From positions 65,519 to 129,518 of the forward strand of contig NZ_JBCFBA010000005.1 in assembly GCF_038562415.1 (NCBI RefSeq): a stretch of 64,000 nt of DNA. Direction: 5' to 3'. The notes beneath the pieces are model-generated. The model was given only the letters and a program-made list of their open reading frames with translations, did not search any database and was not told where the DNA came from. Each line of letters starts with the position of its first letter. Position 1 is the first letter of the stretch. The position numbers were made by a program, and so were the translations under genes. This stretch comes from Solidesulfovibrio sp. GTDB taxonomy: Bacteria; Desulfobacterota; Desulfovibrionia; Desulfovibrionales; Desulfovibrionaceae. Below are positions 5,953 through 62,408 of this stretch, piece by piece.

Positions 5953-8466
5953 ATGAGCAAGTACGTGCCCGAGGACGTCGAGAAAAAATGGCAGGCCATC
6001 TGGGAAGAGGGCGGCCACTTCAAGGTGGAGGCCGATCCTTCCCGGCCGAAATACTACGTCCTCGAGATGTTCCCCTACCCCTCGGGGCGCATCCACATGG
6101 GGCACGTGCGCAACTACTCCATCGGCGACGTGGTGGCCCGGTTCAAGCGCATGGAGGGGCATAACGTCCTGCACCCCATGGGCTGGGACGCCTTCGGCAT
6201 GCCGGCGGAAAACGCCGCCATCAAGCACGGCCTGCACCCGGCCGCCTGGACCATCTCCAACATCGACTCCATGCGCACGCAGTTAAAGCGCCTGGGCTAT
6301 TCCTACGACTGGCGCCGCGAGATCGCCACCTGCCACCCCGGCTACTACGTCCACGAACAGCGCTTCTTCCTGGACTTCCTGAAAAGGGGCCTGGTCTACC
6401 GCAAGCACGCGCCCCAGAACTGGTGCGAGACCTGCGGCACGGTGCTGGCCAACGAGCAGGTCATCGACGGCTGCTGCTGGCGGTGCGACCAGCCGGTGGT
6501 GCAAAAGGACCTGGAACAGTGGTTTTTGCGCATCACGGCCTACGCCGAGGAGCTCCTGGCCGACCTGGACACGCTGGCCGGCGGCTGGCCCGAGCGCGTG
6601 CTGACCATGCAGCGCAACTGGATCGGCAAGTCCGTGGGCGCCCAGCTGTCCTTCGACCTGGCCGAGCCCGTGGACGGCGAGACCGGGATCACCGTCTTCA
6701 CCACCCGGCCGGACACGCTGTTCGGCGCCACCTTCATGAGCCTGGCCGCCGAGCATCCGCTGGTGCCCAAGCTCATCGCCGGCAGGCCGCAAGAGGCGGC
6801 CGTGGCCGCCTTCGTCGAGGGCGTGCGCAACATGGACCGCATCGCGCGCGGCGGCGAGGACCTGGAAAAAGAGGGCGTGTTCACCGGGGCCTATTGCGTC
6901 AACCCGGCCACGGGCGCGCAAATCCCCATCTACGTCGCCAACTTCGTGCTCATGGGCTACGGCACCGGCGCGGTCATGGCCGTGCCGGCCCACGACCAGC
7001 GCGACTTCGAGTTCGCCCGGAAATACGATTTGCCGCTTCGGGTCGTCATCAGCCCCGAGGGAAGGACCCTCGACCCGGCCACCATGACCGAGGCCTACGC
7101 CGATCCGGGCGTGCTGGTCGATTCGGGCGCCTTCACGGGCCTGCAAAACGAAGCGGCCAAGGGCAGGATCATCGACTGGCTGGCCGAAACGGGCCGGGGC
7201 ACGCGGGCGGTCCACTACAAGCTGCGCGACTGGAACATCTCGCGCCAGCGCTACTGGGGCGCGCCCATCCCGGTCATCCACTGCAAGCGTTGCGGCGTCG
7301 TGCCCGTGCCGGACCAGGACCTGCCCGTGGAGCTTCCCCGCGACCTGGCCCTGCTGCCCGACGGCCGCTCGCCCCTGCCGGTCTCGCCGTCGTTTACCGA
7401 CGTCGCCTGCCCCCTGTGCGGCGGCAAGGCCCGGCGCGAGACCGATACCCTCGACACCTTCTTCGAGTCCTCCTGGTATTTCGCCCGCTACGCCTCGGCC
7501 AGGGAGCGGGGCCGGCCCTTCGATCCGGCCGAGATCGGCTACTGGCTGCCCGTGGACCAGTACATCGGCGGCATCGAGCACGCCATTTTGCACCTGCTGT
7601 ACTCGCGCTTTTTCGTCAAGGCCCTGCGCGACTGCGGCTACCTGGCCTTCGACGAGCCGTTTTCCAACCTGCTCACCCAGGGCATGGTCATCAAGGACGG
7701 CGCCAAGATGAGCAAGTCCAAGGGCAACGTGGTCGACCCGGACCTGATGATCGGCAGGTACGGGGCCGACACGGTGCGGGTGTTCATCCTTTTCGCCGCG
7801 CCGCCGGAAAAGGACCTGGAGTGGAGCGACACCGGCATCGAGGGGTCGTCGCGGTTCCTCGCGCGCCTGTGGCGCCTGGTGACCGAGGAACTGGCCGGGC
7901 TCCTTTTGCCCGTGGGGGCCTGCGCCAAAGCCGGGGAACTGGGAATCGACGGCCTGCCGCCCCTTTTCGCCGAACTGCGCCGCCGCGAACACGCCACCGC
8001 CGCCAAGGCCGGGGCCGACATCCGCGAGCGCTTCCAGTTCAACACGGCCATCGCCGCGGTCATGGAGCTGGTCAATTTCCTGTACGCCAACGTGGACGCC
8101 CTCAAGGCCGAACCCAGGGGGGCCAAGGCCGTGTCCTCGGCCGTGGCCACCCTGCTCACCGTGCTCTCGCCCATCGCCCCGCACATCTGCGAGGAGCTGT
8201 GGCGGCGCATCGGCCACGAAAAGCTCCTCATCGAACAGCCCTGGCCGAGCCACGACCCGGCCGCGCTCGTCACCGACGCGGTGGAGATCGTGGTCCAGGT
8301 GTGCGGCAAGCTGCGCGGCAAGGTGAGCGTGGCCCGCGACGCGGCCAGGCAGGACGTGGAAAAGGCGGCCCTGGCCGACGCCAACGTGGCCAAGCACATC
8401 GAGGGCAAGACCGTGCGCAAGGTCATCGTGGTGCCGGGCAAGCTCGTCAACGTGGTGGTCGGCTGA
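5953..8466 (+). CDS. leuS: Leucyl-tRNA synthetase
   Basis: This 837-residue class I aminoacyl-tRNA synthetase charges tRNA-Leu. The HIGH-type motif [15 protein letters not shown] is near residues 39-53. A CP1 editing domain follows, with [12 protein letters not shown] near residue 252. A zinc ribbon with CKRCG and CPLCGG lies in the middle, and KMSKS is at about 585-589. The anticodon-binding domain and the C-terminal domain ending in [13 protein letters not shown] are complete. An AAGGAG site precedes the ATG. A strong terminator lies 25 nt after the stop. Confidence 0.97.
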
Positions 8467-10707: not shown

Positions 10708-10723
10708 TGGCACACGCATTGCA
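10708..10723 (+). promoter_or_regulatory. Sigma-54 promoter of GRE1
   Basis: TGGCACACGCATTGCA matches the -24/-12 consensus TGGCAC-N5-TTGCW at every conserved position. It lies 106 nt before the GRE1 start, facing it. Confidence 0.9.
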
Positions 10724-13382: not shown

Positions 13383-13664
13383 ATGCGCATCACCCCGCAA
13401 GCCCGCGAAAAGATCGTCGCCTTCATGGAAAACGCGGACGAAAACAAGCTGCGGGTCTCCCAGTTGTCCCTGGGCGGCTGTTGCAGCGCCAAGATCCAGC
13501 TCGGCGTGAGCCTGGCCGAGGAGGCCGAGGCCGGCGAGGAAGCATATGACGTGGACGGCATCGTGGTGCTCATCGACCCCGTGCTGCGCAAGCGGCTGGG
13601 AGAGGTGACCATCGACTGCGGCGACACCGGGATCGTGGTGCGCGCCGCGAACGACGGAGCCTGA
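13383..13664 (+). CDS. HesB/IscA-like small protein, Cys form (GRE1-associated)
   Basis: This 93-residue protein starts MRITPQAREKIVAFM, the usual opening of HesB/IscA-fold proteins. It has a central GGCCSAKIQLGVSL segment. The second Cys lines up with the Cys/Sec position of the four other HesB-like proteins in this window. The canonical C-terminal CG.C Fe-S ligand motif of A-type carriers is absent, so ordinary Fe-S scaffold function is doubtful. It lies between GRE1 and its activase, whose ATG is 2 nt after this stop. Its role is unknown, but the repeated association suggests a partner of the GRE or activase. Confidence 0.75.
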   Translation: MRITPQAREKIVAFMENADENKLRVSQLSLGGCCSAKIQLGVSLAEEAEAGEEAYDVDGIVVLIDPVLRKRLGEVTIDCGDTGIVVRAANDGA

Positions 13665-13665
13665 C

Positions 13666-14586
13666 ATGATGCCCGGGCGGGACGTTCCGGCAACGGGCCG
13701 GGTCTTCGACATCCAGCGCTATTGCGTGCACGACGGCCCCGGGGTGCGCTCCACGGTCTTCCTCAAGGGCTGCCCCTTGTCCTGCGCCTGGTGCAGCAAT
13801 CCGGAGTCCCAGGACCCCAAGCCGCAGATCCTGTATTTCCGGAATCTGTGCCACAAATGCGGCGTCTGCCTCAAGGCCTGCCCCCACGGGGCTCTGGCTG
13901 TCGAGAACGAGGCCCTGGTCCGCCACCCCGACCGCTGCCGGACCTGCGGCGCCTGCGTGGACGCCTGCCTGTACGAGGCCCGCGTCCTCAGCGGAAAGAC
14001 CATGACCGTGGAAGCGGTCTGCCAGGTGGTGCGGGAGGACTGGCGCCTCTACGCCCAAAGCGGCGGCGGGATCACCGTGGGCGGGGGCGAGGCCCTGGCC
14101 CAGCCGGAGTTCCTTGCGGCCCTGCTGGACGTGCTGCACGACGGCCTGGGCTACCATACCTGCCTGGACACCAGCGGCTTCGCCCGCTGGGCCACCCTGG
14201 AGGCGGTCCTGCCCCACCTGGACCTGATCCTTCTGGACATCAAGCATGTGGACGGCAAGGCCCACCGGCGGATGACCGGCGTGGACAACGCCGTGATCCT
14301 GGACAACGCCGCCAGGCTCGGCAGCCGGGGCTTCCCGGTGATCATCCGGGTGCCGCTGATCCCGGAGTTCAACGACGACGCGGCCAGCCTGCACGGACTG
14401 GGAGCCTTGCTGCGCGAGTTGCGCTTTCCCGAGGTGGAGATCATGCCCTACCACGCCTACGGCCTCTCCAAATACCAGGCCCTCGGCCGCGACTACCCCC
14501 TGGGGGCGCCGCCGCCGCCCGACGCGGCCCTGGCCGCCGAAGTGCTGCAAGCCTACGGCCTCAACGTGTCCGTCCACCAACGCTAA
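13666..14586 (+). CDS. Glycyl radical enzyme activase (radical SAM) for GRE1
   Basis: This 306-residue activase has the radical SAM Cys triad in GCPLSCAWCSNPE (about residues 38-50), which binds the SAM cluster. A ferredoxin-like insert follows with two further cluster motifs (CHKCGVCLKAC and CRTCGACVDAC), as in the activases of dehydratase/lyase and arylalkylsuccinate-type GREs. SGGGITVGGGE is the SAM-binding GGE motif. It would abstract H from Gly803 of GRE1. It directly follows the HesB-like gene and is co-transcribed. Confidence 0.93.
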   Translation: MMPGRDVPATGRVFDIQRYCVHDGPGVRSTVFLKGCPLSCAWCSNPESQDPKPQILYFRNLCHKCGVCLKACPHGALAVENEALVRHPDRCRTCGACVDACLYEARVLSGKTMTVEAVCQVVREDWRLYAQSGGGITVGGGEALAQPEFLAALLDVLHDGLGYHTCLDTSGFARWATLEAVLPHLDLILLDIKHVDGKAHRRMTGVDNAVILDNAARLGSRGFPVIIRVPLIPEFNDDAASLHGLGALLRELRFPEVEIMPYHAYGLSKYQALGRDYPLGAPPPPDAALAAEVLQAYGLNVSVHQR

Positions 14587-21632: not shown

Positions 21633-22085
21633 CTATTGCAGCAACAACATCGTAACGGCAGGCGCGGCCTGCATCGGGGTCAGGAGGTAGGCGCGGCTGT
21701 TCCCGCTGTTGGCGACGATTTGCCGTTGGTCGTTGATGCCCGGGGCGTCCACGAGCACTTCGGTTGTCGGCAGGTCTTGCACGAGGCTGTTTAAGTCATA
21801 CATGGTCCCCCCGCTATGGAGGAAGGCGCGGTTGCCGTTGGTCAGGGAGAGCGTGTAACCCACCACCTGGTCGGAAGCGTTGACGCCCATGGCAAAGCTT
21901 TCCACGGCTCCCTCGGTGACGCCCAAGTCCAGCATGCCCCCGTCGCTGTAGAGAAATGCCCGCGTGGTTATTGTGCCGGCTGAGCTGTAACAATAGTCGA
22001 CGACCTGCCCGGAGCTGTTGCTACCGAAAGCGTAGCTTCCAGACGTGTACGGAGCGGGAGAGGGGCGAGCAACAGCCCTACGCAC
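21633..22085 (-). pseudogene. HAF-repeat protein fragment
   Basis: Up to 150 residues contain the extracellular HAF repeat pattern: AFLYSDGGMLDLGV, then ASDQVVGYTLSLTNGNRAFLHSGGTMYDL, then GINDQRQIVANSGNSRAYLLTP. The start of the frame (Arg/Pro-rich, no signal peptide) is not homologous, and intact members are several hundred residues long. The 5' part therefore seems to be lost, leaving a remnant. Confidence 0.65.
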
Positions 22086-22211
22086 CAGAGGCTTGGGCAG
22101 GCGCAGTGACGAAGCCCGGGAGCTTCCCAGCGTGGGCTGGACGTGCCGTCCTTATGAAGTTCTTCACAGGCCGTCAAGGCGTGTACATTTTCGCAAATTT
22201 GTTTGCGGAAG

Positions 22212-23018
22212 TCAGCTGTCACCACCATTTTGAGGGACAGCCGCTCCCTCATCCATTTTTTGAAAGCCCTTCCTGAACACTATCAACGAACAGTTCTTGC
22301 ATATATCCGCACCAGGAAATGTGTTTTCAGGCATCCTCCTCAATCGCTGTTCCAGAAACTCCACCGTCTCTTCCAACCGCGAGGCCGGGATGAAGACATT
22401 CACCTCGCCCCGTTCTGTTTTGCCCGAATTGTAACTGCCCGTACAACTCGGGGTTACGTTAAAACTTTGTTCCCGCCAACAGAACACGCCGCCTCCGCAT
22501 GCGGAAGAGCTTTCACATATCATGGGTCGTAGCGGATGCGTTTTTGTCGCAGCCATGTATTCTACGGCAAGACGGTGTGATTGAAAATTATCACAATAAA
22601 AATGGATGACATGCGGATCCATCACAGCGTTTCCAAGGGGGCCGACGGCGACACCTTGCAGCGAGTCAAGCGGCAGGCGCGGTTTTGAGCCCACAATGAG
22701 TTCCGCCACCTCCCTGCTCGCATACTCTTGCGCCACCGCCTCGATGTCATCCTCGTCAATGCCGGCCCAGCCAAAACTGATTCTGGCATTGTGGCAGCCG
22801 AGTTGCTTCTTTTCCCCGACAACCGTCTGGCCCTGCATTCTCGCGGCGATTTCCCACTGACAATACGTCAACGGCCGGGCGGGAATCACATGGGGAGTGA
22901 TCTCCTTGAAAAGATTCATTTCGTCTTCCGTGGACAGAAACGTAACGGCAATCGGATGATGGTAGAGGTGAAGCTCTCGCATCAAGATATCTTCCATTTC
23001 CCGATAACTGCGGGGCAT
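22212..23018 (-). CDS. DUF169-family protein in the GRE2 operon
   Basis: This 268-residue cytoplasmic protein fits the DUF169 family, whose function is unknown. Conserved Cys clusters are visible in LTYCQWEIAARMQG, QLGCHNARISFG, SSACGGGVFCW, PSCTGSYNSG and ICKNCS, suggesting a metal or Fe-S site. GAGGAGACTGCC precedes the ATG at 23018. It is the last gene of the run GRE2, HesB-like (Cys), HesB-like (Sec), DUF169, so it may support GRE2 or its product pathway. Confidence 0.75.
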   Translation of the reverse strand: MPRSYREMEDILMRELHLYHHPIAVTFLSTEDEMNLFKEITPHVIPARPLTYCQWEIAARMQGQTVVGEKKQLGCHNARISFGWAGIDEDDIEAVAQEYASREVAELIVGSKPRLPLDSLQGVAVGPLGNAVMDPHVIHFYCDNFQSHRLAVEYMAATKTHPLRPMICESSSACGGGVFCWREQSFNVTPSCTGSYNSGKTERGEVNVFIPASRLEETVEFLEQRLRRMPENTFPGADICKNCSLIVFRKGFQKMDEGAAVPQNGGDS

Positions 23019-23154
23019 GGCAGTCTCCTCGAATAGGGCAAGGGCCCGGCGGGCCAGAAGGCCGTCCGCTCCACGGCGACAACCGGAGCCGGGTGCGTCC
23101 TTAACCGGGGCCCTGCTCAATGCAGGCGTTTCATTGGAAATCGGGACAGGCGGG

Positions 23155-23442
23155 TCAATCCAGCGCAACCACCACAGGCATCCGGCTCTTATCAAGGGAG
23201 ACGGAAAAATGGGTACCGTATTGGTCCGCAAGTTCCTTGTCGATGACAAAAGGCAGGGATTCTGCTTCGCCTATCACGTCATTGGCCTCACGCGTATCAA
23301 TGCTCAGCCTGAGCATGATTCTGCTGTCTCAGGCGCAGCCGCACCGCGTCTCGCGTAGGCGCAGGCACGAGGAGTCCCCTTCCTTGTCGAGAAGGGCCTG
23401 GAGCCGGGCCACCGCTTCCGCGGTCAGGGCAATATGAAGCAT
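23155..23442 (-). CDS. HesB-like selenoprotein with in-frame UGA (GRE2 operon)
   Basis: Read from ATG 23442 to TGA 23155 this encodes 95 residues if the in-frame TGA at 23329-23331 (codon 38) is selenocysteine. The context is RCGCAU-DSRIMLRLSID. It aligns without gaps with GSAC-KSKIVLRLSID of the neighbouring Cys paralogue, so UGA stands exactly at the conserved Cys. Homology continues through the whole downstream part (SLPFVIDKELADQYGTHFSVSLDK), so the reading frame is under selection past the TGA. A palindromic hairpin starts 12 nt after the UGA, as in bacterial SECIS elements. AAAGGA precedes the start. HesB-like selenoproteins are a known group; their function is not established. Confidence 0.82.
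23300..23316 (-). promoter_or_regulatory. Predicted bacterial SECIS hairpin
   Basis: ATGCTCAGGCTGAGCAT is a perfect palindrome around a central G (8-bp stem, or 6 bp with an AGGCT loop) beginning 12 nt after the UGA. The Cys paralogue has a diverged, non-palindromic sequence at the same place. The second UGA gene (48782) shares the 12-mer core. Confidence 0.75.
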
Positions 23443-23462
23443 GCCGCAGTGTCCTTTAATGC

Positions 23463-23502
23463 GGCGCAGGTCCGCGGTTCGCGGACCCCCCAGACCTGCG
23501 CC
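23463..23502 (-). repeat. Hairpin between the two HesB-like genes of the GRE2 operon
   Basis: Arms GGCGCAGGTC (23463-23472) and its complement (23493-23502) enclose an alternative inner stem around GGTCCGCG. It lies between the Cys and Sec HesB-like genes and could tune relative expression. Confidence 0.55.
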
Positions 23503-23532
23503 GGCGTCCGGTGAGTGGGAAATGGTTGCGAG

Positions 23533-23817
23533 CTACTCCAGGGGCTTCACGTCAAAGCTCTGGTGCTCGTCCAGAACGACGGAAAAATTCTCTCCGTACT
23601 GCTCCACCAACTCCTTGTTGATGACGAACGGCAGGGATTGCGCCTGGCCTTCCACGTCATCATCCTCGCGTTCGTCGATACTGAGCCTAAGCACAATCTT
23701 GCTTTTGCAGGCGGAGCCGATCTTCGTTTCCCGCACGCGGACGACGGCGTCCGCGCCTTCCTGGTTGAGCAGGAATTTGAGCTTGTCCGCAACTTCGCTG
23801 GCCATGGAGATCTGCAT
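23533..23817 (-). CDS. HesB-like small protein, Cys form (GRE2-associated)
   Basis: This 94-residue protein starts MQISMASEVADKLKFLLNQEGADAVVRVRETKIG. The key segment SACKSKIVLRLSIDERE carries the Cys that is replaced by UGA in the next gene. The C-terminal half LPFVINKELVEQYGENFSVVLD closely matches that paralogue. It lacks the CG.C ligands of IscA-type carriers. It lies 66 nt after GRE2 in the same operon, with AAAGGA before its start. Confidence 0.78.
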   Translation of the reverse strand: MQISMASEVADKLKFLLNQEGADAVVRVRETKIGSACKSKIVLRLSIDEREDDDVEGQAQSLPFVINKELVEQYGENFSVVLDEHQSFDVKPLE

Positions 23818-23844
23818 ACGAAATATCCTTTTCCAGGCAGGCCA

Positions 23845-23859
23845 GCGGCCTCAGGCCGC
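23845..23859 (-). repeat. Small GC-rich hairpin after GRE2
   Basis: GCGGCC-TGA-GGCCGC lies 25 nt after the GRE2 stop and before the HesB-like gene, in the same relative position as the hairpin after GRE1. Confidence 0.5.
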
Positions 23860-23883
23860 CGGACTTCGCCGTATTGAGATGAG

Positions 23884-26319
23884 TTACATGGTGGCCGCGT
23901 ACTGAGTGCGCTTGATGATTTCGTTTTGCACACCCTGGTCCAGGCGGGTGAAGTACGCACTGAACCCGGCCACGCGCACGACGAGGTCCTTGTAGTTCTC
24001 CGGATGCGCCTGGGCTTCGCGCAACGTGTCGGAGCTGACGCAGTTGAACTGCACGTGGGAGCCGCCCAGGTCGAAGTAGGTCTTGACCAGGGTGAGCAGG
24101 TTTCGCGCCCCGGCCGGTCCTTCCAGGGCGGACGGCAGGAACTTCACGTTGAGGTGGTTGCAGTTGTTGCGGGTGGTGTCGATGGCCTGGGCCGCCGACT
24201 TGAGCAGGGCCGTGACGCCTTCCACGTCGGTGCCGGGCATGGCGGACACGCTCGCGTCGGTCAGGGCCACGCCCTTTTTGCGGCCGTTGGGCAAGGCGCC
24301 GGTCATGGGCGCGAAGTAGTTGTGGAACGACAGGGAGAAGGGATCCATATGCGCTTCGTAGTCGAAGAAATCCGTGCCCGAGTCGCGGTAGATCTTCTCG
24401 ATGTCGCGCATCATGCGGCGCACGAAGGCGTCCACTTCCGGATAGTCGTTGCCGTGCTTGGGCGCTTCGTAGCACATCGTGCGGATGTCCTCGTGGCCTT
24501 CGAAATTGACCTTCAGGGCGTCCAGCAACTGCGCCCAGGGCAGCTGCTTCGTGTCATAGACGAGGTGCTTGATGGCGTAGAGCGAGTTGGCCGCGTCCAT
24601 GCCGCCGGTGGTGATGCACAGGGACTGGGCGTACAGAGGGCCTCCCTGCTCCTCGTACAGCCCCTTTTCCAGGCAGCCGTCGATGACGCAGGAGCGGAAG
24701 ATGCTCGGCACCACCTCTTCCCGGGTCATGTTGCCCAGGTCGCTGATGCGACGCTGCACCAGGAAGCCGTGGACCATATGCTTGAGGTAGGCCTGGTAGA
24801 GGTCCTCGAAAGTGGCGAAGGTTTCCGGTTTGCCAACCGGGGGAAAGAGCTGCTTTTTGATGTGGGGGTCATAGCCGTCGTTGAGCGTCAGCTCCACGAT
24901 CTTGGGCAGGTTCGGCTGGCCTTCGAAGGTCACGTACGACCCCTTGCCGGCCATGCCGGTGCCCACGCAGCCGAAGATGACGGGACAGGTGCGGGCTTCG
25001 TCCAGGGTGACGCCCCGGCTGGCGAACCGCACCAGCGAACGCTGGATGGCCACGTTGGCATTCATGAGTTGGGGCTGGCCGGTGCCGCCACGGATGACGT
25101 CGATGGCCTTGTCCAGATAGGCTTGGGACATCTTGGGGTGATAAAACAGCGCCAGGGTGGGCTGGATGTTCTTCATGGCAATCTGGGTGTCCATGAGCAA
25201 CTCTTCCAGTTCCGTGCTGGCATCGTCTCCCTCGGCGGTATAGCCTCCCAGGGAGATGGTTTGGCCGGTGTGGCCGGACAGGGCCAGCGTATAGGCCGCG
25301 CCCTGGTACACGGCGATTTCCAAGTGCTTGACCCACTGGAACTTGAGCAGGATCAGAGCCTGGTCCCGGGTGAGGGTTCCCGCGTCCATGTCCTTTTTGT
25401 AAAAGGGGTCCATGTACTGGCCGTAGCGGCCGGGAGAGGTGCCGCAACCGGCCTGCTCGATTTCGATGGCCAGATGGGTGAACCAGAAGGCCTGGACGGC
25501 TTCGCGGAAGTTTCGGGCCGGGAATTCCGGCACGCGACGGCAGACGGCGGCGATTTCCAGCAACTCGGCCTTGGCTTTCGGATCGCTTTCGGCGGCGGCG
25601 GTGGCCTCGGCCAGATCGGCATAGCGATGGGCGTAGGCGACGATGGCGCCAAGGGCTATCTTGCAGGCGCGATAGAATTCGAGTTTGCTGATGTTGCAGG
25701 CCTTCTTCGGCAGGGCCTGCATATGCGCCTCGATTTCCTTCAGAATGCCGGAAATCCCTTTTTGCAGCACCTTCTCGTAGTTGCAGGCGCCGGAACCGGT
25801 GCTGTTGTCATTGACGGGGTACAGCCAACCGGATTTGACGAGGAGCTCGGCGTTTTCGCCGTAGATCTCCTTGTACAGCGTATTGGCACGGTCATAGGTG
25901 GTGCGCCCCTTCCACTGTTTGTAGACGGACTTCAGCAAATCCTCCGTCTCCTTGGGAATGCTCACCTCGCCCAGGGAGGACATCTTGACCATGTCGATTT
26001 CGTCTTTGATCCAGTTGACCTGCCACTCGGGATAGGCATACACGCCGGCACGTATGCCGGTCATGGTGCCAACGATGGGGTTTCCGTCGAGAAAGATATT
26101 CTTTTGTGTCAGCAGGCGTTCCAGCAGTTTGGCACGAATCACGACGATGGGCTCGCCCTTGCATTCCTCATACACCTGCATGAGAAATTCGAGACGTTGA
26201 GGATCCATCTTCTGCGGAGCTTCCAAAAGAAAGCTCTTAAGTTCCTTGATACGCGCATCCGTGGTTTCCCAGTTCAAACTGTAGCCAGAATCCTGGGTTT
26301 CCTTGTCGTCCAATAACAT
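23884..26319 (-). CDS. Glycyl radical enzyme 2 (CVGTG-type, substrate unknown)
   Basis: This 811-residue enzyme has the radical Gly at about 785 (VRVAGFSAYFTRL). The presumed thiyl Cys is at about 451 in IFGCVGTGMAGKG, again with Gly where dehydratase-type enzymes have Glu. It is a clear paralogue of GRE1: both have EQAGCG-SPGR-GQ, SGHTG-TISLGG, the same CVGTG loop and the same length, but differ in most other residues, so substrates may differ. AAGGAG precedes the start. It is first in an operon with two HesB-like genes and DUF169. No activase is downstream; the nearest is at 29320 on the other strand, beyond the divergent regulator. Confidence 0.9.
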   Translation of the reverse strand: MLLDDKETQDSGYSLNWETTDARIKELKSFLLEAPQKMDPQRLEFLMQVYEECKGEPIVVIRAKLLERLLTQKNIFLDGNPIVGTMTGIRAGVYAYPEWQVNWIKDEIDMVKMSSLGEVSIPKETEDLLKSVYKQWKGRTTYDRANTLYKEIYGENAELLVKSGWLYPVNDNSTGSGACNYEKVLQKGISGILKEIEAHMQALPKKACNISKLEFYRACKIALGAIVAYAHRYADLAEATAAAESDPKAKAELLEIAAVCRRVPEFPARNFREAVQAFWFTHLAIEIEQAGCGTSPGRYGQYMDPFYKKDMDAGTLTRDQALILLKFQWVKHLEIAVYQGAAYTLALSGHTGQTISLGGYTAEGDDASTELEELLMDTQIAMKNIQPTLALFYHPKMSQAYLDKAIDVIRGGTGQPQLMNANVAIQRSLVRFASRGVTLDEARTCPVIFGCVGTGMAGKGSYVTFEGQPNLPKIVELTLNDGYDPHIKKQLFPPVGKPETFATFEDLYQAYLKHMVHGFLVQRRISDLGNMTREEVVPSIFRSCVIDGCLEKGLYEEQGGPLYAQSLCITTGGMDAANSLYAIKHLVYDTKQLPWAQLLDALKVNFEGHEDIRTMCYEAPKHGNDYPEVDAFVRRMMRDIEKIYRDSGTDFFDYEAHMDPFSLSFHNYFAPMTGALPNGRKKGVALTDASVSAMPGTDVEGVTALLKSAAQAIDTTRNNCNHLNVKFLPSALEGPAGARNLLTLVKTYFDLGGSHVQFNCVSSDTLREAQAHPENYKDLVVRVAGFSAYFTRLDQGVQNEIIKRTQYAATM

Positions 26320-26378
26320 TTGGCTGTCTCCTTTGTCATTGAGTGAGGAACATTGCCTCTCGCTCCGATTTCACCCAA

Positions 26379-26394
26379 AGCAAGGGGTATGCCA
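26379..26394 (-). promoter_or_regulatory. Sigma-54 promoter of GRE2
   Basis: On the minus strand TGGCATACCCCTTGCT fits the -24/-12 pattern TGGCAY-N5-TTGCW. It lies 59 nt before the GRE2 start codon. Confidence 0.85.
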
Positions 26395-26567
26395 CAAAAA
26401 ATACTTTTACATTTCAGTATATTGCCCGACTTTTGCCGCAATCTCCATAAGTGAATTGATGGGCAGGCCGTGCGACGGGGCGAAACCCTTGAACGATACC
26501 TTGATAACAAGCTTGAATTATTTATATAAATAGCGAATCCCCACTCCGAGGGCGTGAACAGATCGTA

Positions 26568-26595
26568 CCGGAATCGATACAATTCACGATTCCGG
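26568..26595. promoter_or_regulatory. Candidate enhancer site for the locus 2 activator
   Basis: A perfect 9-bp inverted repeat, CCGGAATCG and CGATTCCGG, is separated by 10 nt. It lies about 175 bp upstream of the GRE2 sigma-54 promoter and in front of the divergent activator gene. Binding by that activator is inference. The rest of the 26395-26955 spacer holds no recognisable gene. Confidence 0.45.
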
Positions 26596-26790
26596 ATGGC
26601 CAGGCACATCCCGACGTCCGCCCCGGAGGCCCGACGCTTGCGAATGCCCCAACGGCATCGAACGCTCACCTGAATATTCCACTGCCATCATTCCGTTTTC
26701 AGGCCTTCCGACCAGGGCGATCGGCCACACGAAAGCATTGCGCCGCGTGATTCCACAGGCCGGGCGAGTCGGGGCGCATCGCCTCCTCCC

Positions 26791-26819
26791 TTGACAGGCG
26801 CTTCTTTTCAATCTAGTTT
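26791..26819 (+). promoter_or_regulatory. Possible sigma-70 promoter of the locus 2 activator
   Basis: TTGACA at 26791 is followed after 17 nt by TAGTTT, a weak -10 match. It points toward the activator gene starting at 26956. Confidence 0.3.
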
Positions 26820-26955
26820 GAAAAAAATTTACTTAAATAACAGTGGGTTTTGCGCCACACCCCCTCTTGCCGAACACAGCACAGATGCTTGAACGATCAT
26901 ATAGTGTAGGGTGAACGAATTCGTCGCAATCACCATGCGTAACCCAGGAAAGCGT

Positions 26956-28407
26956 ATGCAATTGCATAACTTCGACAACCCGAAGTCATTGGAAGACCTT
27001 GCCGGGAGCGCCTATACCAGCGTATTCGAGCTTCTCCACACTGGCATTTCCATCATGTCCGCCGAAGGCTATTTTCTGTACTCCAACAAAGCCTTTCTGG
27101 AGATGTTCAATCTTCCGGCAGATGTGTACGGAAAACATGTGTCTGACTTTTTTCTTACCGCCGAACAAGGCGTCATGACCACCATCCGCACGCGTAAAAT
27201 GACCATCTGTTCCAGCGTGACCAATAACAATGCGCAAGGGGTTTCTTTTCGTTATCCGCTTCTGGATGACAATGGCAAACTGCTTGGGGTGATCATCGAA
27301 AGCATCTCGACCAGCATCGACAAGGAAAAGCTGCTGTCGTTGCTGGAAACAGTCCGCAACCTTGAGGAAAAGGTCGATTATTTCGAACGCAAGTCACAAA
27401 AAAAACCTGGAATGCTGTATACTTTCGACAGCATTGTCGGGGAAAGCGACCCCATGGAGGCCATGAAAAAGCGCGGCCGTCGTTTTGCCAGAAGCAATGA
27501 GCCCATTTTGCTGTTCGGGGAAAGCGGCACCGGCAAGGAACTCATCGCTCAGGCGCTGCATTCCTCAAGCGAACGCGCCGGCAAGCCCTTCGTGACGGTC
27601 AACTGCGCCGCCCTGCCCCATGACCTCATGGAATCGGAGCTTTTCGGCTACGGCACGGGCGCCTTCACGGGCGCCAAGTCCGGCGGCATGAAAGGGAAAT
27701 TCGAACTGGCCGACAAGGGGACCATCTTCCTGGATGAAATCGGCGAAACGTCCATGCCCATGCAGGCCAAGCTCCTGCGCGTGCTGGAAAGCGGAGAAAT
27801 CCAAAAAATCGCCCACTCCGGGCGGCTGCATTCGGATTTTCGCCTCATCGCGGCGACCAACAAGAATCTGGCGCAGCTTGTGGAAGAGGGGACGTTCCGC
27901 GAGGATTTGTACCATCGGCTCAATATCCTCGAACTGGACATCCCTCCCTTGCGGGAGCGCATCAGCGACATCCCGCTGCTGACCCGCCATTTCATCGGGC
28001 AGATCATGGGGCACAAGCGAGCCCGGGAAATCCACATCTCCAACGAGCTCTACCGGGTCTTCGGGATCTATCCATGGCGCGGCAACGTGCGCGAACTCAA
28101 AAACGTGCTCACCTCCGCCCTCTACACCTTGGAAGGTGACGGGGACATATTGACCCTGCGGCATCTGCCGGAGCGATTCCTCCGGGAACTGCGTAGCGAC
28201 CGCCCCGAATCCCGCGAGGAACTCCCGCTGGAAGCCCCGGACCTGGCCAAGGCCGGCGCCCAGGCCGAACGCAAGACCCTCATGTCCGTCCTGGCCAGCA
28301 CGGAATACAACAAGACGCTGGCGGCGCGCGTTCTCGGCATCTCCCGCAACAAGCTGTACAAGAAAATGCGCGATCTCGGCCTGCGTGCCCCCGCGCACGA
28401 GTCCTAA
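26956..28407 (+). CDS. PAS-domain sigma-54-dependent activator of GRE locus 2
   Basis: This 483-residue activator has a PAS sensor (about residues 20-130, [23 protein letters not shown]) and a short coiled coil. The AAA+ domain follows with Walker A GESGTGKE and GAFTGA. A Fis-type HTH ends the protein ([20 protein letters not shown]). The start at 26956 is chosen for its AGGAAA site; a GTG at 26911 and an ATG at 26935 lack one. It lies between GRE2 (divergent) and an activase operon, both with sigma-54 promoters, so it probably controls both. It lacks the PrpR-type domain of the locus 1 activator, so its signal differs. Confidence 0.9.
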
Positions 28408-28657: not shown

Positions 28658-28955
28658 CTTCTCCATCCGGTGTCCTGGCGCCCTTTGCGCACGCTGCGGG
28701 CCTCGAAGAGGCACCGCGGCGCAATAACGGCCGGCCAGGGCCGGCCTTCGGGCATCTGGTACAAATCGCACTCCTTTCGTGACAACTTGCCTAGGCCTTC
28801 CCATAACTTTGAAAAACATATCTCCATAAATTCAGTATATTAGCAAACAAGCCAGAGACGGACCGCATCAGACCAGCCAGCGCTTTCCTGCGGCCGAAGC
28901 GGGCGCACAGCCAATTTTTCCATTCTATCCTTTCAAAATCACTGAGTATTTTGTT

Positions 28956-28971
28956 CGGCACACGCCTTGCA
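28956..28971 (+). promoter_or_regulatory. Sigma-54 promoter of the activase/MFS operon
   Basis: CGGCACACGCCTTGCA matches the -24/-12 consensus except for the first base. It faces the activase gene but lies 348 nt before its start codon, leaving a long leader (28972-29319) in which I see no conserved ORF. Confidence 0.8.
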
Positions 28972-29319
28972 AAGACCAAAGCCACAACGAGGCGGAAAGT
29001 CCGCACGGGCAGCGTTGAAAATCGTCCGCGTAAACCGTGGCAGGCTCGAGCGGAGAGCGACGGACGAGAACCCCGGAAGCGCTTCCCGAACCGGACCAGG
29101 CAGACGCGCGGGGCGTTTGCGGCCATGCGGCCAGCGCTTCGCCGGCGTGACATGGGAGCGGATCATCAACGGGCGGCATGTCATGGAGAGTATCCGACCG
29201 CCGCTGTCCCCGCCGGCCGTTGCGAACGGAAGGCCATGCGCGGTCGGCCTGCGGTCCGGCTGGCGACACTCCGCCTCAAGGCCACGCTCATGATTCAAGG
29301 GGATGAAGGAGTGGAAGGA

Positions 29320-30213
29320 ATGCAGTCCGGCACTGTGTACAATATCCAGCGCATGTCCACCCAGGACGGGCCTGGCATGCGCACTACCGTGTTTCTGAAG
29401 GGATGTCCCTTGCATTGCCTCTGGTGCAGCAATCCAGAATCGCAAAGTTTTCAACAGCAACTTCTGGTTTTTGACAATCTCTGCCGTGGCTGCGGCAAAT
29501 GCATGGAAGTGTGTCCTCACGGAGCTGTCATTAAAAACGGAGAACTCTACGGCAGAGACATTTCCATTTGCCACGACTGCGGTGTCTGCGCGACAGCTTG
29601 TCCGGCAAAGGCCCGCATCATGTCCGGAACGAGCATGACCGTAGAGGAAGTGATGCAGGTCGTGCGCAAAGACAGCCTCTTTTACGGCAATTCTGGCGGC
29701 GGCGTCACTTTCGGCGGCGGCGAGCCCACCAGCGCTGGCGAATTCCTCATCGCCCTTCTGCACGCCTGCCGCCAAGAGGGTTACCATACCTGCGTCGACA
29801 CCTGCGGCCACTGCGCGCCGGAACAATTCAAGAAAGTGCTGGACCTGGCGGAACTGCTGCTTTTCGACTGCAAGCACATGAACCCCGAGCAGCATCGGCG
29901 TCTCACCGGCCAGGACAATGGCCTGATCATCGCCAACCTGCGCGAAGCGATGCGTGCGAGCGTGCCCGTGCGCATCCGCGTTCCGCTCATGCCCGGCCTC
30001 AACGACTCCGACGACAACATCGCCGCCATGGCCGCCCTGTTGCACGAGTTCGACAGGCGCGACGTGGATGTGCTGCCATGCCATGCGTTCGGGAAAAGCA
30101 AGTATGCGGCTCTCGGTCACCATGCGCCCGACCTGGCTGCCTATGAACCGAATGCATTGAAAGAGGTTCTGGACAGATTCCGCCGGCATGATCTCAACAT
30201 CACTATTGTTTGA
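29320..30213 (+). CDS. Glycyl radical enzyme activase (radical SAM), probably for GRE2
   Basis: This 297-residue enzyme has the SAM-cluster triad in GCPLHCLWCSNPE, two ferredoxin-type motifs (CRGCGKCMEVC and CHDCGVCATAC) and the SGGGVTFGGGE motif. The start at 29320 (MQSGTVYNIQRM) has AAGGAG 8 nt upstream; the Met at 29290 has no such site. GRE2 has no activase beside it, and this one is on the other side of the shared regulator, so the pairing is likely. It is followed after 31 nt by a HesB-like gene. Confidence 0.92.
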   Translation: MQSGTVYNIQRMSTQDGPGMRTTVFLKGCPLHCLWCSNPESQSFQQQLLVFDNLCRGCGKCMEVCPHGAVIKNGELYGRDISICHDCGVCATACPAKARIMSGTSMTVEEVMQVVRKDSLFYGNSGGGVTFGGGEPTSAGEFLIALLHACRQEGYHTCVDTCGHCAPEQFKKVLDLAELLLFDCKHMNPEQHRRLTGQDNGLIIANLREAMRASVPVRIRVPLMPGLNDSDDNIAAMAALLHEFDRRDVDVLPCHAFGKSKYAALGHHAPDLAAYEPNALKEVLDRFRRHDLNITIV

Positions 30214-30244
30214 TGCTCCGCAAACAGTAGACGATGACAATTCC

Positions 30245-30562
30245 ATGGTCTCGATAAAACTGACAAACGAAGCCGCCTTGCACCTTCGGAGACAGCTGGC
30301 GCAAGTCGGCGGCGGCGCCGGCATACATATTTGCCGGTGCGAATTCGGTGCGCCTGGCTGTGGACAAACACTAATGAATCTTGTCGTGGCGCAATGCAAG
30401 GATGGCGATGAGGAAAGCAAAGCCCTGGGAATTCCCTTTTCCGTCGACAGCGACATCCTGGCTGTATACGGAAGCAGCTTTTCCGTATTTCTCGATGACA
30501 GCGGATTCCCGACAGTACGTGTGATTCAAAAAATAGCAAACTGCATTCGAGCCGTACGATAA
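30245..30562 (+). CDS. HesB-like small protein (activase-associated)
   Basis: This 105-residue protein begins MVSIKLTNEAALHLRRQL, a HesB-type start. The Cys-rich segment CRCEFGAPGCGQTLMNLVV occupies the place of the Cys/Sec segment in the other copies. The later ALGIPFSVDSDILAVYGSSFSVFLDDSG matches the LPFVINKELVEQYGENFSVVLD part of the GRE2-linked copies. It is co-transcribed with the activase and is the most diverged of the five paralogues in the window. Confidence 0.72.
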   Translation: MVSIKLTNEAALHLRRQLAQVGGGAGIHICRCEFGAPGCGQTLMNLVVAQCKDGDEESKALGIPFSVDSDILAVYGSSFSVFLDDSGFPTVRVIQKIANCIRAVR

Positions 30563-34477: not shown

Positions 34478-34493
34478 TGGCACCTATTTTGCT
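34478..34493 (+). promoter_or_regulatory. Sigma-54 promoter of the porin gene
   Basis: TGGCACCTATTTTGCT is a perfect -24/-12 match. The porin ATG is 438 nt downstream. The leader (34494-34931) shows no conserved ORF. Confidence 0.85.
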
Positions 34494-36735: not shown

Positions 36736-36751
36736 TGGCACAGGCCTTGCT
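36736..36751 (+). promoter_or_regulatory. Sigma-54 promoter of the MFS copy 2/clpA-like/hypAB unit
   Basis: TGGCACAGGCCTTGCT is a perfect -24/-12 match. The MFS start is 379 nt downstream; the leader 36752-37130 has no convincing ORF. Confidence 0.85.
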
Positions 36752-38486: not shown

Positions 38487-40811
38487 ATGAGCGAATTCAC
38501 ACCCCGGCTTCAGGAAGCCTACGACCTTGCCGCCAAGGAGGTGCGTTCCCGGCGTCATGGTTTTTTGAGCGCCGAGCACCTGCTTTATGCGCTGTGCCGG
38601 GAGCCGATCGCCATGGAGGTGCTCCGCCTGGCCGGCGGCGACGCCGGAAAAATCCGCGAGGGCCTCGACCGCCATCTGGACAAGAAAGCGCCCTTGCCGC
38701 GCCGGCAGTCCGAAAACGTGTTGCGGCACAAAAGCCTTGAGCGGGTGATCCATATCGCCCGGGTCAATGCCGATACGGCCGGCGCGCAACGGATCGGCGT
38801 CGGCGACATCCTCCTGGCCATGCTCGAGGAGGATACGAGCGCGGCCGCGTATTGCATCCGTGACCAGGGCGTTACCCATAGCGCCATCCGTTCCGCGATC
38901 GAGCGCGGCAACCTGGATGCGCAAAGCGAGCTGCGCCTCAACGCGGCCTTTGGAAACACCGTGCTCAGCCGGGCCGGAGACGGCGGGGATCCGGGGCTGT
39001 CCGCGTCCTCCGCCCTTGGGGCCTTCACCGTGGACCTCAGCCGCCGGGCGGAGACGGGAGGGCTCGATCCGCTCATCGGACGTACCGCCGAACTCGACCG
39101 CACCATCGAGGTCCTGGCGCGTCGCCGCAAGAACAACCCCCTCTACCTGGGCGAGCCGGGAACCGGCAAAACGGCCATGGCCGAGGGGCTTGCCCTGCGT
39201 ATCCTGCATGGCGACGTGCCCGCGGGCTTCAAGGACGCCCGCATCCATTCCCTGGATGTGGGGGCCTTGCTGGCCGGAGCCCGCTATCGCGGCGATGTGG
39301 AGGGCCGGGTGAAGGCCGTCTTAAAGGAGTTGGCCGAAATGCCGAAGCCTCTCCTTTTTATCGACGAGATTCACACCCTGGTCGGTTCCGGCCTGGGCGG
39401 CGCATCCGACATGGATATCGCCAACCTGCTCAAGCCGGTTCTCTCCCAGGGAGCTTTGCGCTGCATCGGCTCCACCACCTATGTGGAATACCGCAACCGC
39501 ATGGAAAAGGACCGGGCCTTGGTCCGCCGTTTCCAAACGATTGAAATCCGCGAGCCCTCCATCGACAGCTGCCTGGAGATCCTGAAGGGGTTGGAGGAGC
39601 GGTACGCCAGGCACCACGGGGTGCGCTACGCCGGGGACGCCCTGCATGCCGCCGTGGAATTGTCCGCCCGTTTCGTGCAGGACCGGCTGCTGCCTGACAA
39701 GGCCATCGACGTCATGGACGAGGCCGGCTCCCTTGTTTGCCTCCGAGGCGACCGCGGGCCTGGCGCCGCCGTGCTGCGCCAGGACGTCGAGCAGGTGGTG
39801 GCCCGCATGGCCGGCATCCCCCCACAGACGCTCTCCGGCACGGAAAAGGAACGCCTGCGCCGTCTCCAGCCGGAACTCGAATCACGCATATTCGGGCAGG
39901 ACAAGGCCATCGACACGGTCTGCCAGGCCATCATCTGCGCCCGGGCCGGGCTTTCCCGCGAAAAGCGTCCCGTCGGCTCCTTCCTGTTCTGCGGTCCGAG
40001 CGGGGTGGGGAAAACCGAGCTCGCCAAGCAGATCGCGGAGGCGCTGGGGGTGAAGTTCCTGCGGTTCGACATGAGCGAGCACATGGAGGCCCACGCGGTT
40101 TCGCGCCTGGTCGGCTCGCCTCCCGGGTATGTCGGCTACGACGAGGGCGGCCAACTGACGGAAGCCGTGCGCCGCACCCCGTACTGCCTGGTGCTGCTGG
40201 ATGAAATCGAGAAGGCGCATCCGGACATCTTCAATATCCTGCTCCAGGTCATGGATTATGCCACGCTTACGGACGGCAGCGGACGCAAGGCCGATTTCAG
40301 CAATGCGATCCTGATCATGACCTCCAACGTGGGATCGCAGGAAATCGCCGCCGGCGGCGTGGGCTTCCTGGCCGGGGCGTCCGACGCGGCCTGGCGCGGC
40401 ATGAAGGCCGTGGAGCGCGTCTTCACGCCGGAGTTCCGCAACCGGCTGGATGCCATAGTGCCTTTCGGCCCGCTCTCGAGCGCCCTTATGGGCCGCATCG
40501 TGGACAGCAACGTGGCCCTGTTGGGGCCCGGCCTCAGGGAGCGCGGCATCCGGCTGACCCTTTCGCCGCAGGCCCGCGCCTGGCTGGCCGAAAAAGGCTA
40601 TGCCCCGGCCTTCGGCGCGCGCCCCCTGCAGCGCCTGATCCGGGAATCCCTGGAGCGCCCCCTGTCCAGGGAACTCCTGTTCGGAGCCCTGGAAAACGGC
40701 GGGGAGGTGCTTGTCCTCCCTCCGCAAAAGGGAAAAGACGGCGAGGAACCCCGAACACTGCGCTTCGAAGTGCGGCCAACGAACACGCCGGAAAAAAAGA
40801 CGGCCCCGTGA
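38487..40811 (+). CDS. ClpA-like AAA+ unfoldase
   Basis: This 774-residue Clp/Hsp100 ATPase has an N-terminal Clp_N repeat domain (residues 1-140). AAA domain 1 has Walker A GEPGTGKT and [17 protein letters not shown] domain 2 has Walker A GPSGVGKT and [22 protein letters not shown] lies at the place of the ClpP-binding IGL/F loop of ClpA, so docking to ClpP is possible. No clpS or clpP is adjacent, unlike housekeeping clpA. With an Fe-S protein and hypAB downstream, it may be a dedicated unfoldase or disaggregase for a metalloprotein made by this region. Confidence 0.88.
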
Positions 40812-47706: not shown

Positions 47707-47831
47707 CCCGTGGCGCAGAGGATATTTTGCAGGCAAAGCCGCAGTCCCGTTAGGGATACTGGAGCGGCTGCAAAAAAAAGAAGCGGGGCTCATTTTTATC
47801 GGCGGTAGCGGCCGCACTTTTGAGGTTATGT

Positions 47832-48731
47832 ATGGAAGGGATGATCCTCAAGATAGACAGATGCTCCAAGCACGATGGCCCTGGTCTGCGGACCGTCGTA
47901 TTCCTGAACGGTTGTCCTTTGCGCTGCCAGTGGTGTTCCACTCCCGAGTCCCAGTGCGAGAAACCGCAGCTGCTCCATATCGAAACACTCTGCGTCTTGT
48001 GTGGCCGCTGTGTCGTTTCCTGTCCGGAAAAGGCCCTGCAGGTCATTCCTGGCGGCATCATCATTGACCGCCAACGGTGCACTTTTTGCGGCAAATGCCT
48101 GCAGGTCTGCCTCAACCACGCCATGCGGGCATCCGGCACCAGCATGACGCTGGACCAGGTGTTCGACATCGTCAATCGTTCCCGCCCATTCTGGACCCGG
48201 ATGGCCGGCGGCCTCACCATCAGCGGCGGTGAAGTGCTCTTCCAGTTCGAGTTCTCCAAGGCTCTCCTGCAGAAATGTCACCGTGCCGGAATCAACACCA
48301 ATATCGAAACCAGCTGCTGCGCTCCGATGGAAAATGTACGCGAGCTGCTCCCCTATCTCGATCATGTGTGCTGCGACGTGAAACACATGGACGATGCCAC
48401 CCACAAAAAACTCACCGGCGTCTCCAACCGGCAGATACAGGAAAATATACGCATGATCAGCCACGAAAAAGACTTGATCCTTCGTTACCCGATCATTCCA
48501 ACCTGCAACGATTCGGAAGAAAATATCGACGCGACAGCGGCATTCATCAAGACCCTCGGGGATAAATTCAACCGCATCGACCTGCTTGCCTATCATCAGA
48601 TGGGTGCCGTCACCTACCGTCGGCTTGGCCGCGAATACGCGCTCGAAAGCGTTCCCACCCTCTCTCGTGAAAAAATGAAGCGCGTTCACGACAGGATGCT
48701 TGCCCACGGCATCCGGGCCGTTCTGGCCTGA
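47832..48731 (+). CDS. Glycyl radical enzyme activase (radical SAM) for GRE3
   Basis: This 299-residue activase has the SAM-cluster triad in GCPLRCQWCSTPE, two ferredoxin motifs (CVLCGRCVVSC and CTFCGKCLQVC) and GGLTISGGE. The ATG at 47832 has TGAGGT 5 nt upstream. It lies 167 nt after GRE3, with the hairpin between. It would install the radical on Gly789 of GRE3. Confidence 0.92.
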   Translation: MEGMILKIDRCSKHDGPGLRTVVFLNGCPLRCQWCSTPESQCEKPQLLHIETLCVLCGRCVVSCPEKALQVIPGGIIIDRQRCTFCGKCLQVCLNHAMRASGTSMTLDQVFDIVNRSRPFWTRMAGGLTISGGEVLFQFEFSKALLQKCHRAGINTNIETSCCAPMENVRELLPYLDHVCCDVKHMDDATHKKLTGVSNRQIQENIRMISHEKDLILRYPIIPTCNDSEENIDATAAFIKTLGDKFNRIDLLAYHQMGAVTYRRLGREYALESVPTLSREKMKRVHDRMLAHGIRAVLA

Positions 48732-48781: not shown

Positions 48782-49051
48782 ATGGATATCACGATCACCG
48801 CCACGGCCGTGGCCAGGTTGCGCGAACTCCTGGCCCGGCAGGACAACGACGCCCGCATCCGCATCAGTATCGTGAAAGTGGCATGTGGCTGAAAAAAGCA
48901 GCTCGATCTCAGGCTGAGCATCGATGCCAATATTGACGGGAACGAAGACCGGGTGTTCGAACTGTATAACATGCCTTTTGTCGTAAACAAAAAACAGGAA
49001 AATGCATGTCGATCCGGCTGTCGCCTCGGGATGGCCGCCCTGCTCGCATAG
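48782..49051 (+). CDS. HesB-like selenoprotein with in-frame UGA (GRE3 locus)
   Basis: From ATG 48782 the frame starts MDITITATAVARLRELLARQD, a HesB-type opening. At codon 37 (48890-48892) there is TGA in the context ACGU-KKQLDLRLSID. This aligns with the Cys of SACKSKIVLRLSID and the UGA of the 23155 gene. A SECIS-like hairpin follows 10 nt later. Homology continues to MPFVVNKK. The last about 18 residues (QENACRSGCRLGMAALLA) do not match the paralogues and the gene is shorter, so the 3' end may be altered or frameshifted. It lies 50 nt after the GRE3 activase. Confidence 0.72.
48903..48924 (+). promoter_or_regulatory. Predicted bacterial SECIS hairpin (second copy)
   Basis: TCGATCTCAG-G-CTGAGCATCGA folds into a stem of about 10 bp with one bulged C on the 3' side, beginning 10 nt after the UGA. 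A bulge is also a feature of the E. coli fdhF SECIS. The CTCAGGCTGAGC core is identical to that in the 23155 gene. Confidence 0.72.
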
Positions 49052-62296: not shown

Positions 62297-62408
62297 CTCC
62301 CAAGCCCCCTCAGCTTGTCCCTGTTATGAATCCCCGCCCAGGCCGGTAGGGTTCCGGCTCTTCGGGAGCTACCCTAGGGCGGGGAAATGTCGTCTATGCG
62401 GTCGTCAG

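Follow-up and report, generated by a model that had tools for sequence, protein, structure and literature searches.

Oxygen inactivates glycyl radical enzymes (GREs), whose activases rely on Fe-S clusters. A-type carriers have three ligand cysteines, two of which lie in a C-terminal tail (PMC7144353, available sections). In the available parts of PMC13188914, PMC9312934 and PMC1794560, the HesB-like selenoprotein of the reviews is the family of model TIGR01911, and a UxGP motif is given for it in PMC13188914, whose available text does not contain NF033940, ErpA or the term 'glycyl radical'. In 2006, D. vulgaris and D. desulfuricans were each credited with one HesB-like selenoprotein (PMC1794560, available part). 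For D. vulgaris, the available text of PMC4641369 describes DVU2275 as a divergent sigma-54 regulator and places an annotated pyruvate formate-lyase (PFL) in one sigma-54 operon (DVU2272-DVU2269) that also holds an activase and other genes and is called the 'pyruvate formate-lyase' operon; 'selen', 'HesB' and 'glycyl radical' do not occur in that text. In the open-access literature, we found no paper that links the NF033940 family (ErpA-related iron-sulfur cluster insertion protein) to selenocysteine (Sec) or to GREs.

We analyzed a 64,000-nucleotide stretch of Solidesulfovibrio sp. (contig NZ_JBCFBA010000005.1), hereafter called the window. An earlier note on this DNA had proposed that a HesB-like gene carries a UGA codon exactly at the conserved Cys, next to a Cys twin and behind a GRE. 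Comparison with related sequences indicates that this UGA is very probably decoded as Sec with a bSECIS hairpin downstream, and that the protein is tied to the GRE2 system of the same locus. The features discussed below are collected in Table 1.

Table 1. Features of the window, with positions counted from its first nucleotide
Feature	Position	Strand	Evidence or remark
Putative ErpA-related (NF033940) selenoprotein gene (Sec gene), 95 aa, UGA as Sec38	23155-23442	-	translation and NF033940 score
Predicted Sec codon, in-frame UGA	23329-23331	-	opposite Cys of the twin and of homologues
bSECIS-like hairpin	23300-23316	-	7-bp stem; GGC loop, opening 19 nt past the UGA
Cys twin, 94 aa	23533-23817	-	NF033940, 92.6 bits
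DUF169 protein, downstream of the Sec gene	22212-23018	-	neighbour cluster c8, in 8 sources including the window
Glycyl radical enzyme GRE2, 811 aa	23884-26319	-	active site GCVGTG, glycyl site RVAGFSAY
Sigma-54 promoter match TGGCATACCCCTTGCT	26379-26394	-	about 60 bp upstream of GRE2
Divergent sigma-54 enhancer-binding regulator	26911-28407	+	closest PrdR, 382 bits, below cut-off of 795
GRE activase, radical SAM, ferredoxin-type clusters	28951-30213	+	TIGR02494, 342.1 bits
Third, divergent ErpA-related gene, no UGA	30188-30562	+	39.2 bits, below cut-off; just past the activase
Second GRE, 827 aa	10830-13313	+	active site SCVGTG; sigma-54 match 10708-10723
ErpA-related Cys gene	13383-13664	+	36.9 bits, below cut-off; directly past the second GRE
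Activase of the second GRE	13666-14586		after the ErpA-related Cys gene
Third GRE, 815 aa	45217-47664	+	active site GCVEHA
GRE activase, third GRE	47820-48731	+	TIGR02494, 317.3 bits
Second UGA-bearing ErpA-related gene	48782-49051	+	in-frame UGA 48890-48892; bulged hairpin with GGC loop

Results

An in-frame UGA opposite the cysteine of an adjacent twin

Translation of the Sec gene from its ATG start codon to the closing TGA gave MLHIALTAEAVARLQALLDKEGDSSCLRLRETRCGCA-U-DSRIMLRLSIDTREANDVIGEAESLPFVIDKELADQYGTHFSVSLDKSRMPVVVALD. When U was read as C, BLASTP aligned the product with the Cys twin without gaps (45/86 identical, 52%; E = 3e-34), and the UGA fell on a Cys. The reading of the earlier note, in which translation continues through the TGA in the frame of the Cys paralogue with matching residues on both flanks, is thereby confirmed, and the Sec gene adjoins its twin behind a GRE as described there. 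Identity between the two genes was 60% over the 52 codons past the UGA and 38% over the 34 codons ahead of it. An inverted repeat with 16-nt arms (88% complementary) lies between the Cys and Sec genes at 23462-23503, overlapped by a perfect 8-bp one (23469-23487); it is absent from our list of terminator-like sites on the minus strand and is possibly an mRNA processing or attenuation element.

With C at the UGA, the Sec protein scored 85.6 bits against NF033940, above the cut-off of 65, and a profile search of the genome with this model returned the Sec gene at 78 bits with 1 TGA inside the match. The score against Pfam PF01521 fell short of the gathering threshold (23.9 versus 26.3).

Conservation of the UGA column and of the region past it

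Among 348 genomes of the class, 64 had an NF033940 match at E ≤ 1e-4 and 52 had one above the cut-off; many genomes had two adjacent matches, one of them with a TGA. For the comparison we used 60 loci from 53 of the 64 matching genomes, with the window standing for its own genome. Genomes with weak matches only (G068, G263, G268, G272, G275, G276, G290, G295, G307 and G316; 7 of the 10 with a TGA in the match) were left out. Three second matches of low score, in G065 and G070, were omitted as well. The profile search of these loci, the window and a locus of a different type in the window's own genome (L014, see Discussion) yielded 96 sequences. Without the three L014 sequences, 48 carried UGA (two of them in the window) and 40 carried Cys at the column, and five had no clear Cys. 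The common form of the motif was GGGU, and a divergent member at 8048 of locus L087 read CGVU.

The Sec/Cys column, with UGA read as C, was invariant in an alignment of 20 chosen members. In 103 close Sec pairs from relatives, which share sequences among them, dN/dS was 0.124 ahead of the UGA and 0.229 past it, pointing to purifying selection that persists past the UGA among relatives. Conservation of this region in homologues had been proposed in the earlier note as a check, and the region was found to be conserved.

Gene order was classified in the 55 loci whose hits reached 90 bits: 17 were Sec-Cys, 3 Cys-Sec (the arrangement of the window), 24 Sec only and 8 Cys only, with one each of CC, CCC and UU; the single classes are somewhat inflated by contig ends, as in the Sec-only locus L102, which is cut at a contig end and whose Cys copy lies on L064 of the same genome. 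The matched stretches of 19 of the 20 Sec/Cys loci were 76-274 nt apart on one strand, and those of L087 were 3.1 kb apart. Mapped on a tree with 94 rows, the labels Sec and Cys required 15 changes (each a gain or a loss), at least 12 of them forced by the starred branches, versus 31.6 for shuffled labels, in a short alignment with many open forks and an unsettled bootstrap.

In a draw of 395 genomes from the phylum, 9 had a match at E 1e-6 and 5 exceeded the cut-off. One of these five (G361, locus L126) is outside the taxonomic family of the window and has GRE2 together with Sec and Cys genes. A scan of named genomes returned only two Pseudodesulfovibrio MAGs. Another genome of the phylum has a UGA-bearing HesB-like sequence, GGUACTASLRL (L128, 9841-10047), about 4 kb from a GRE that is 46% identical to the second GRE of the window.

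A hairpin downstream of the UGA

The palindrome ATGCTCA-GGC-TGAGCAT begins 12 nt past the UGA, occurs once in the 64-kb window and was absent from 100/100 dinucleotide shuffles. In the bSECIS model, as given in the available part of PMC13188914, the loop has 3-9 nt with a G in its first two positions, the stem has 4-16 bp, the spacing is 16-37 nt and the MFE is at most -7.5. A script of these rules accepted the Sec gene of the window (-8.9 kcal/mol, spacing 18; another folding reached -11.4) and returned no hairpin from the window's own Cys twin. Folded alone, the hairpin was unexceptional (z = -0.94; 37 of 200 shuffles were equally good), and so was its pairing relative to redraws of synonymous codons (P = 0.38). 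We therefore dropped single-sequence folding energy as proof of a SECIS and built the Sec case on comparison rather than on the single hairpin.

At fixed columns (11-17 paired with 23-29 past the UGA), 43 distinct Sec sequences formed 6.53 of 7 pairs, compared with 5.34 ± 0.14 under a synonymous null (z = 8.3; because related genomes and pairs are non-independent, this and the other z and p values reported here overstate the certainty) and with 1.3 to 3.0 for slid helices. Pair changes on both sides of the helix were seen at three pairs (C-G to T-A, G-C to A-T and T-A to A-T). Just 4 of the 7 pairs were formed in two of the 43 Sec sequences, one of which is the second UGA gene of the window. 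The same helix reached 4.63 pairs in 38 distinct Cys genes versus a null of 4.11 (z = 3.1), an excess that could be explained if some Cys genes descend from Sec forms. The scripted bSECIS rules were passed by 28 of 44 distinct Sec sequences (16 missed them) and by 7 of 38 distinct Cys sequences. For these counts duplicates were collapsed, which gave 43 or 44 Sec and 38 Cys sequences, and the five hits that show no clear Cys in the column were excluded; the L014 rows were excluded from both hairpin and distance counts. The earlier note had described the palindrome 12 nt past the UGA and its absence from the Cys paralogue; both hold for the window, but the absence does not extend to Cys twins generally, as those of L081, L112 and L057 keep the hairpin.

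UGA forms track the selenocysteine machinery

The genome of the window (completeness 100) contains selA (619.6 bits), selB (353.8 bits), selD (332.6 bits) and a tRNA-Sec (83.8 bits), which ARAGORN called as tRNA-SeC with anticodon tca. The search for selA, selB, selC and selD suggested by the earlier note thus returned selA, selB, selD and the tRNA-Sec. The selD gene (L131) has one in-frame TGA and is itself likely to encode a selenoprotein.

Among the 53 genomes with GRE2 or an ErpA-related match, the UGA form occurred in 46 of the 48 in which at least one of selA, selB and tRNA-Sec was found and in 0 of the 5 with none detected (p = 7.3e-6; the five fall in two genera and are not five independent events). 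selB and tRNA-Sec were searched in 13 chosen genomes and in the window's own genome, and selA was the marker for the other UGA-bearing genomes. selA was found in 43 of the 46 UGA-form genomes. Two others with the UGA form, G070 and G074, have selB and tRNA-Sec with no selA detected, and in G330 (96% complete, 5% contamination) the UGA form and a tRNA-Sec were found and selA and selB were not. Seven genomes are Cys-only: G076 and G117 have the machinery, and searches for selA, selB and tRNA-Sec returned none in G143, G150, G184, G188 and G193. Three of these seven-plus-three exceptional genomes are less than 90% complete. The presence of the machinery, the conservation past the UGA and the tracking of the machinery by UGA forms together uphold the proposal of a selenocysteine gene.

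Association with one type of glycyl radical enzyme

GRE2 relatives with at least 54% identity were present in 52 of the 348 class genomes, the window's own included. Excluding G148 and G183, where GRE2 identity is below 54%, from the count of co-occurrence, 51 genomes had both a GRE2-like enzyme and an NF033940 match above the cut-off, 295 had neither, and one genome each had a single member (p = 4.7e-59). In one of the single cases, G165, the GRE2 sequence is a fragment at the end of a contig (L073); in the other, G144, the ErpA-related match reaches 64.0 bits, 1 bit below the cut-off. For 90 of the 96 family hits that scored 50 bits or more (the window and 65 loci), a GRE lay no more than 3 kb away, and 88 of the 90 were downstream of it on the same strand; three of the eight exceptions have no GRE in the available piece. 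The pairing of a Sec with a Cys gene recurs among these loci and goes with one GRE type. Eleven loci, L105 (9102-9629) among them, also encode a C_GCAxxG_C_C redox protein (cluster c6) close to the Sec or Cys gene. In L105, TauE and DUF4125 genes lie beyond the regulator.

PFL has a Cys-Cys pair in its active site, where GRE2 has GCVGTG. GRE2-like rows that cover the catalytic Cys read GCV[G/S/T/A][T/S]G, and the motif is GCVE in the four most similar enzymes with solved structures (choline lyase, diol and glycerol dehydratases and one named formate C-acetyltransferase). GRE2 scored 84.1 bits against the PFL model TIGR01255 (cut-off 994.2) and 479.8 bits against TIGR01774 (cut-off 678.2). GRE2 belongs to an uncharacterised GRE type without the usual active-site Glu. 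The label 'pyruvate formate-lyase' is doubtful for this type, which has neither the Cys-Cys pair of PFL nor the Glu of the four compared enzymes.

The window contains four exact matches to the sigma-54 promoter, versus 0.20 expected; two of them are listed in Table 1, and the other two are at 34478-34493 and 36736-36751, the latter upstream of the MFS transporter gene at 36939. A scan of 22000-26900 for consensus terminators returned sites on the plus strand only (4 versus 5.2 in shuffles), which is compatible with a single GRE2-Cys-Sec transcript. Because the matched stretches of 19 of 20 Sec/Cys pairs are this close on one strand (76-274 nt), and both genes of the window lie behind one sigma-54 match, the twins are probably co-transcribed and not switched. 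The true start of the activase gene beyond the regulator is probably near 29320, as the domain begins at residue ~127.

Other GREs and ErpA-related genes of the window

Two further candidates for a GRE were rejected, one being a leucyl-tRNA synthetase (5953-8466) and the other ClpA-like (38487-40811), so that three GREs are retained in the window. Relatives of the third GRE at E 1e-200 were found only in the window's own genome, 1 of 348 of the class, and this comparison gave no ortholog for the second UGA gene; the third GRE was possibly acquired horizontally. In the second UGA gene, the UGA lies in the Sec column of the family, and the C-terminus past NKK, QENACRSGCRLGMAALLA, has no match in the family. 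Its hairpin failed the scripted energy rule (-3.1), folds to -10.3 with a bulge, and forms 4 of 7 pairs at the helix columns (P = 0.49). This gene may be divergent or decaying. An int-alpA RNA (RF02996, 54.4 bits) was found at 62319-62384 on the minus strand and is perhaps part of an integrated element.

Predicted fold

An AlphaFold2 model based on a seven-sequence alignment had a pLDDT of 93.5 and placed Sec38, modelled as Cys, between two strands. The best structural matches among those listed were IscA (Z 11.2; rmsd 2.3 over 90 residues), DsrR (Z 10.9) and SufA (Z 10.5). A profile of the 20 chosen members matched ErpA HI1723 (E = 5.7e-6), with the Sec/Cys column on its first Cys. Of the features of A-type carriers, the fold is kept, whereas only the first of the three ligand cysteines is retained, as Sec or Cys, and the C-terminal CxC is missing. 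The protein is thus predicted to have the fold of an A-type Fe-S carrier in which Sec would replace the first cluster-ligating Cys and the CxC pair is lacking.

Discussion

The UGA is very probably decoded as Sec with the hairpin just downstream. In the mechanism that we propose, the NF033940 protein would be a dedicated accessory of the GRE system with one selenolate or thiolate per chain. This single selenolate would sit at the cluster-facing site, and the protein, which is perhaps dimeric, would serve either the activase, through its Fe-S clusters, or the GRE, through its redox state. The most likely role is the loading or repair of activase Fe-S clusters, to which we give nearly an even chance. 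The protein lacks two of the three ligands that true A-type carriers have, which argues against an Fe-S role.

The Cys twin may serve as a partner subunit or, alternatively, as a form that works without selenium. The view that it is a selenium-independent backup and not a partner is plausible, although we place it somewhat below even: it fits the Cys-only genomes, since the five relatives in which no machinery was detected have Cys forms only, so that Cys forms presumably work. On the other hand, the twins are adjacent in 19 of 20 pairs and have one sigma-54 match in the window, and a partner subunit fits such adjacent and probably co-transcribed genes. The many Sec-only loci imply that a Sec/Cys heterodimer is not obligatory and that a Cys partner is apparently not needed everywhere.

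It is also possible, though somewhat less likely than the Fe-S role, that the Sec protein is not an Fe-S carrier but assists the GRE in selenol/thiol redox reactions or in handling its radical, a role that could cover oxygen protection, release of a spent radical or reduction of the active-site Cys. The single conserved Cys/Sec per chain without a CxC tail, the near one-to-one tie with a single GRE type and the redox protein encoded nearby in 11 loci are consistent with such a role. DsrR suggests that the A-type fold can serve other work. However, the fold and the ligand position are those of Fe-S carriers, and the common GGGU form has neither CxxU nor UxxC, the CGVU of L087 being the one divergent exception.

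The broadest reading is that the Sec and Cys A-type-like twins act jointly as a dedicated maturation or rescue factor for the GRE class without the usual Glu, and that lineages have repeatedly re-evolved this pair because its Sec and Cys forms have distinct tasks within a single complex. We regard this as speculative and rather unlikely; if true, it would mean that a selenoprotein is built into glycyl-radical chemistry. The almost perfect co-occurrence of a selenoprotein family with a single GRE type points to maturation or protection at a level that has yet to be described. In addition, the recurring Sec/Cys twins and the five Cys-only relatives without detected machinery provide a natural comparison of Sec with Cys.

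The label 'HesB-like' in the earlier note is correct at the level of the superfamily, but the gene does not fall into the published UxGP family of TIGR01911 and belongs to NF033940 instead. That it is a plain member of TIGR01911 is very improbable. The superfamily is shared and the position of Sec is comparable, but the Sec protein and the Cys twin scored only 26.9 and 21.9 bits against TIGR01911 (cut-off 66.35), and 29.9 and 26 bits against NF038090, the other HesB-type selenoprotein model (IscA_HesB_Se; cut-off 85). The Sec protein reads U-D-S-R in place of UxGP, and the UxGP type is encoded at a separate locus of the same genome, L014 (1447-2545 of contig C37), which reads GGUAGP and whose three rows are parted from the other 91 by the tree (100/100). 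On score, motif and tree, membership in TIGR01911 was rejected. At L014, a Cys form (GGCCGPS) and another, divergent copy stand in tandem behind the UxGP gene; Sec/Cys tandems are thus also present in the UxGP family.

The view that the UGA is an ordinary stop in a decayed duplicate of the Cys twin is hardly credible and was rejected on selection and machinery tracking: mechanical ORF calling does not return the gene as one ORF, the C-terminus of the second UGA copy (48782) is unmatched, and conservation relative to one of two UGA copies of L083 is 49% past and 53% ahead of the UGA, but the UGA occupies one alignment column in many genomes, dN/dS past it is 0.229 among relatives, UGA forms are absent from the five genomes without detected Sec machinery, and the gene is better conserved past the UGA than ahead of it in comparison with both its twin and L081.

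Among known systems, NF033940 includes both the Sec protein of the window and its Cys twin above the cut-off; the name of the model is silent on Sec and on a GRE partner, and Sec members may already be known to NCBI. The window type shares with TIGR01911 the HesB/A-type superfamily and Sec in place of Cys, and the TIGR01911-type gene at L014 also has Cys-type relatives in tandem; the window type differs in that it is far under the TIGR01911 cut-off, reads GGGU or GCAU without UxGP and occurs in a GRE context. With IscA, SufA and ErpA (PF01521), it has the fold and the position of the first ligand in common, but it is without their C-terminal CxC. DsrR of Allochromatium vinosum (2k4z), whose fold also matches that of the window protein, is an IscA-like protein attached to one metabolic system, and we know of no link of DsrR to Sec or GREs. 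The gene layout at DVU2275 and DVU2272-DVU2269 of D. vulgaris, as described in the available text of PMC4641369, resembles that of the window, and one of the two HesB-like selenoproteins in the PMC1794560 list (D. vulgaris, D. desulfuricans) could belong to the window's type.
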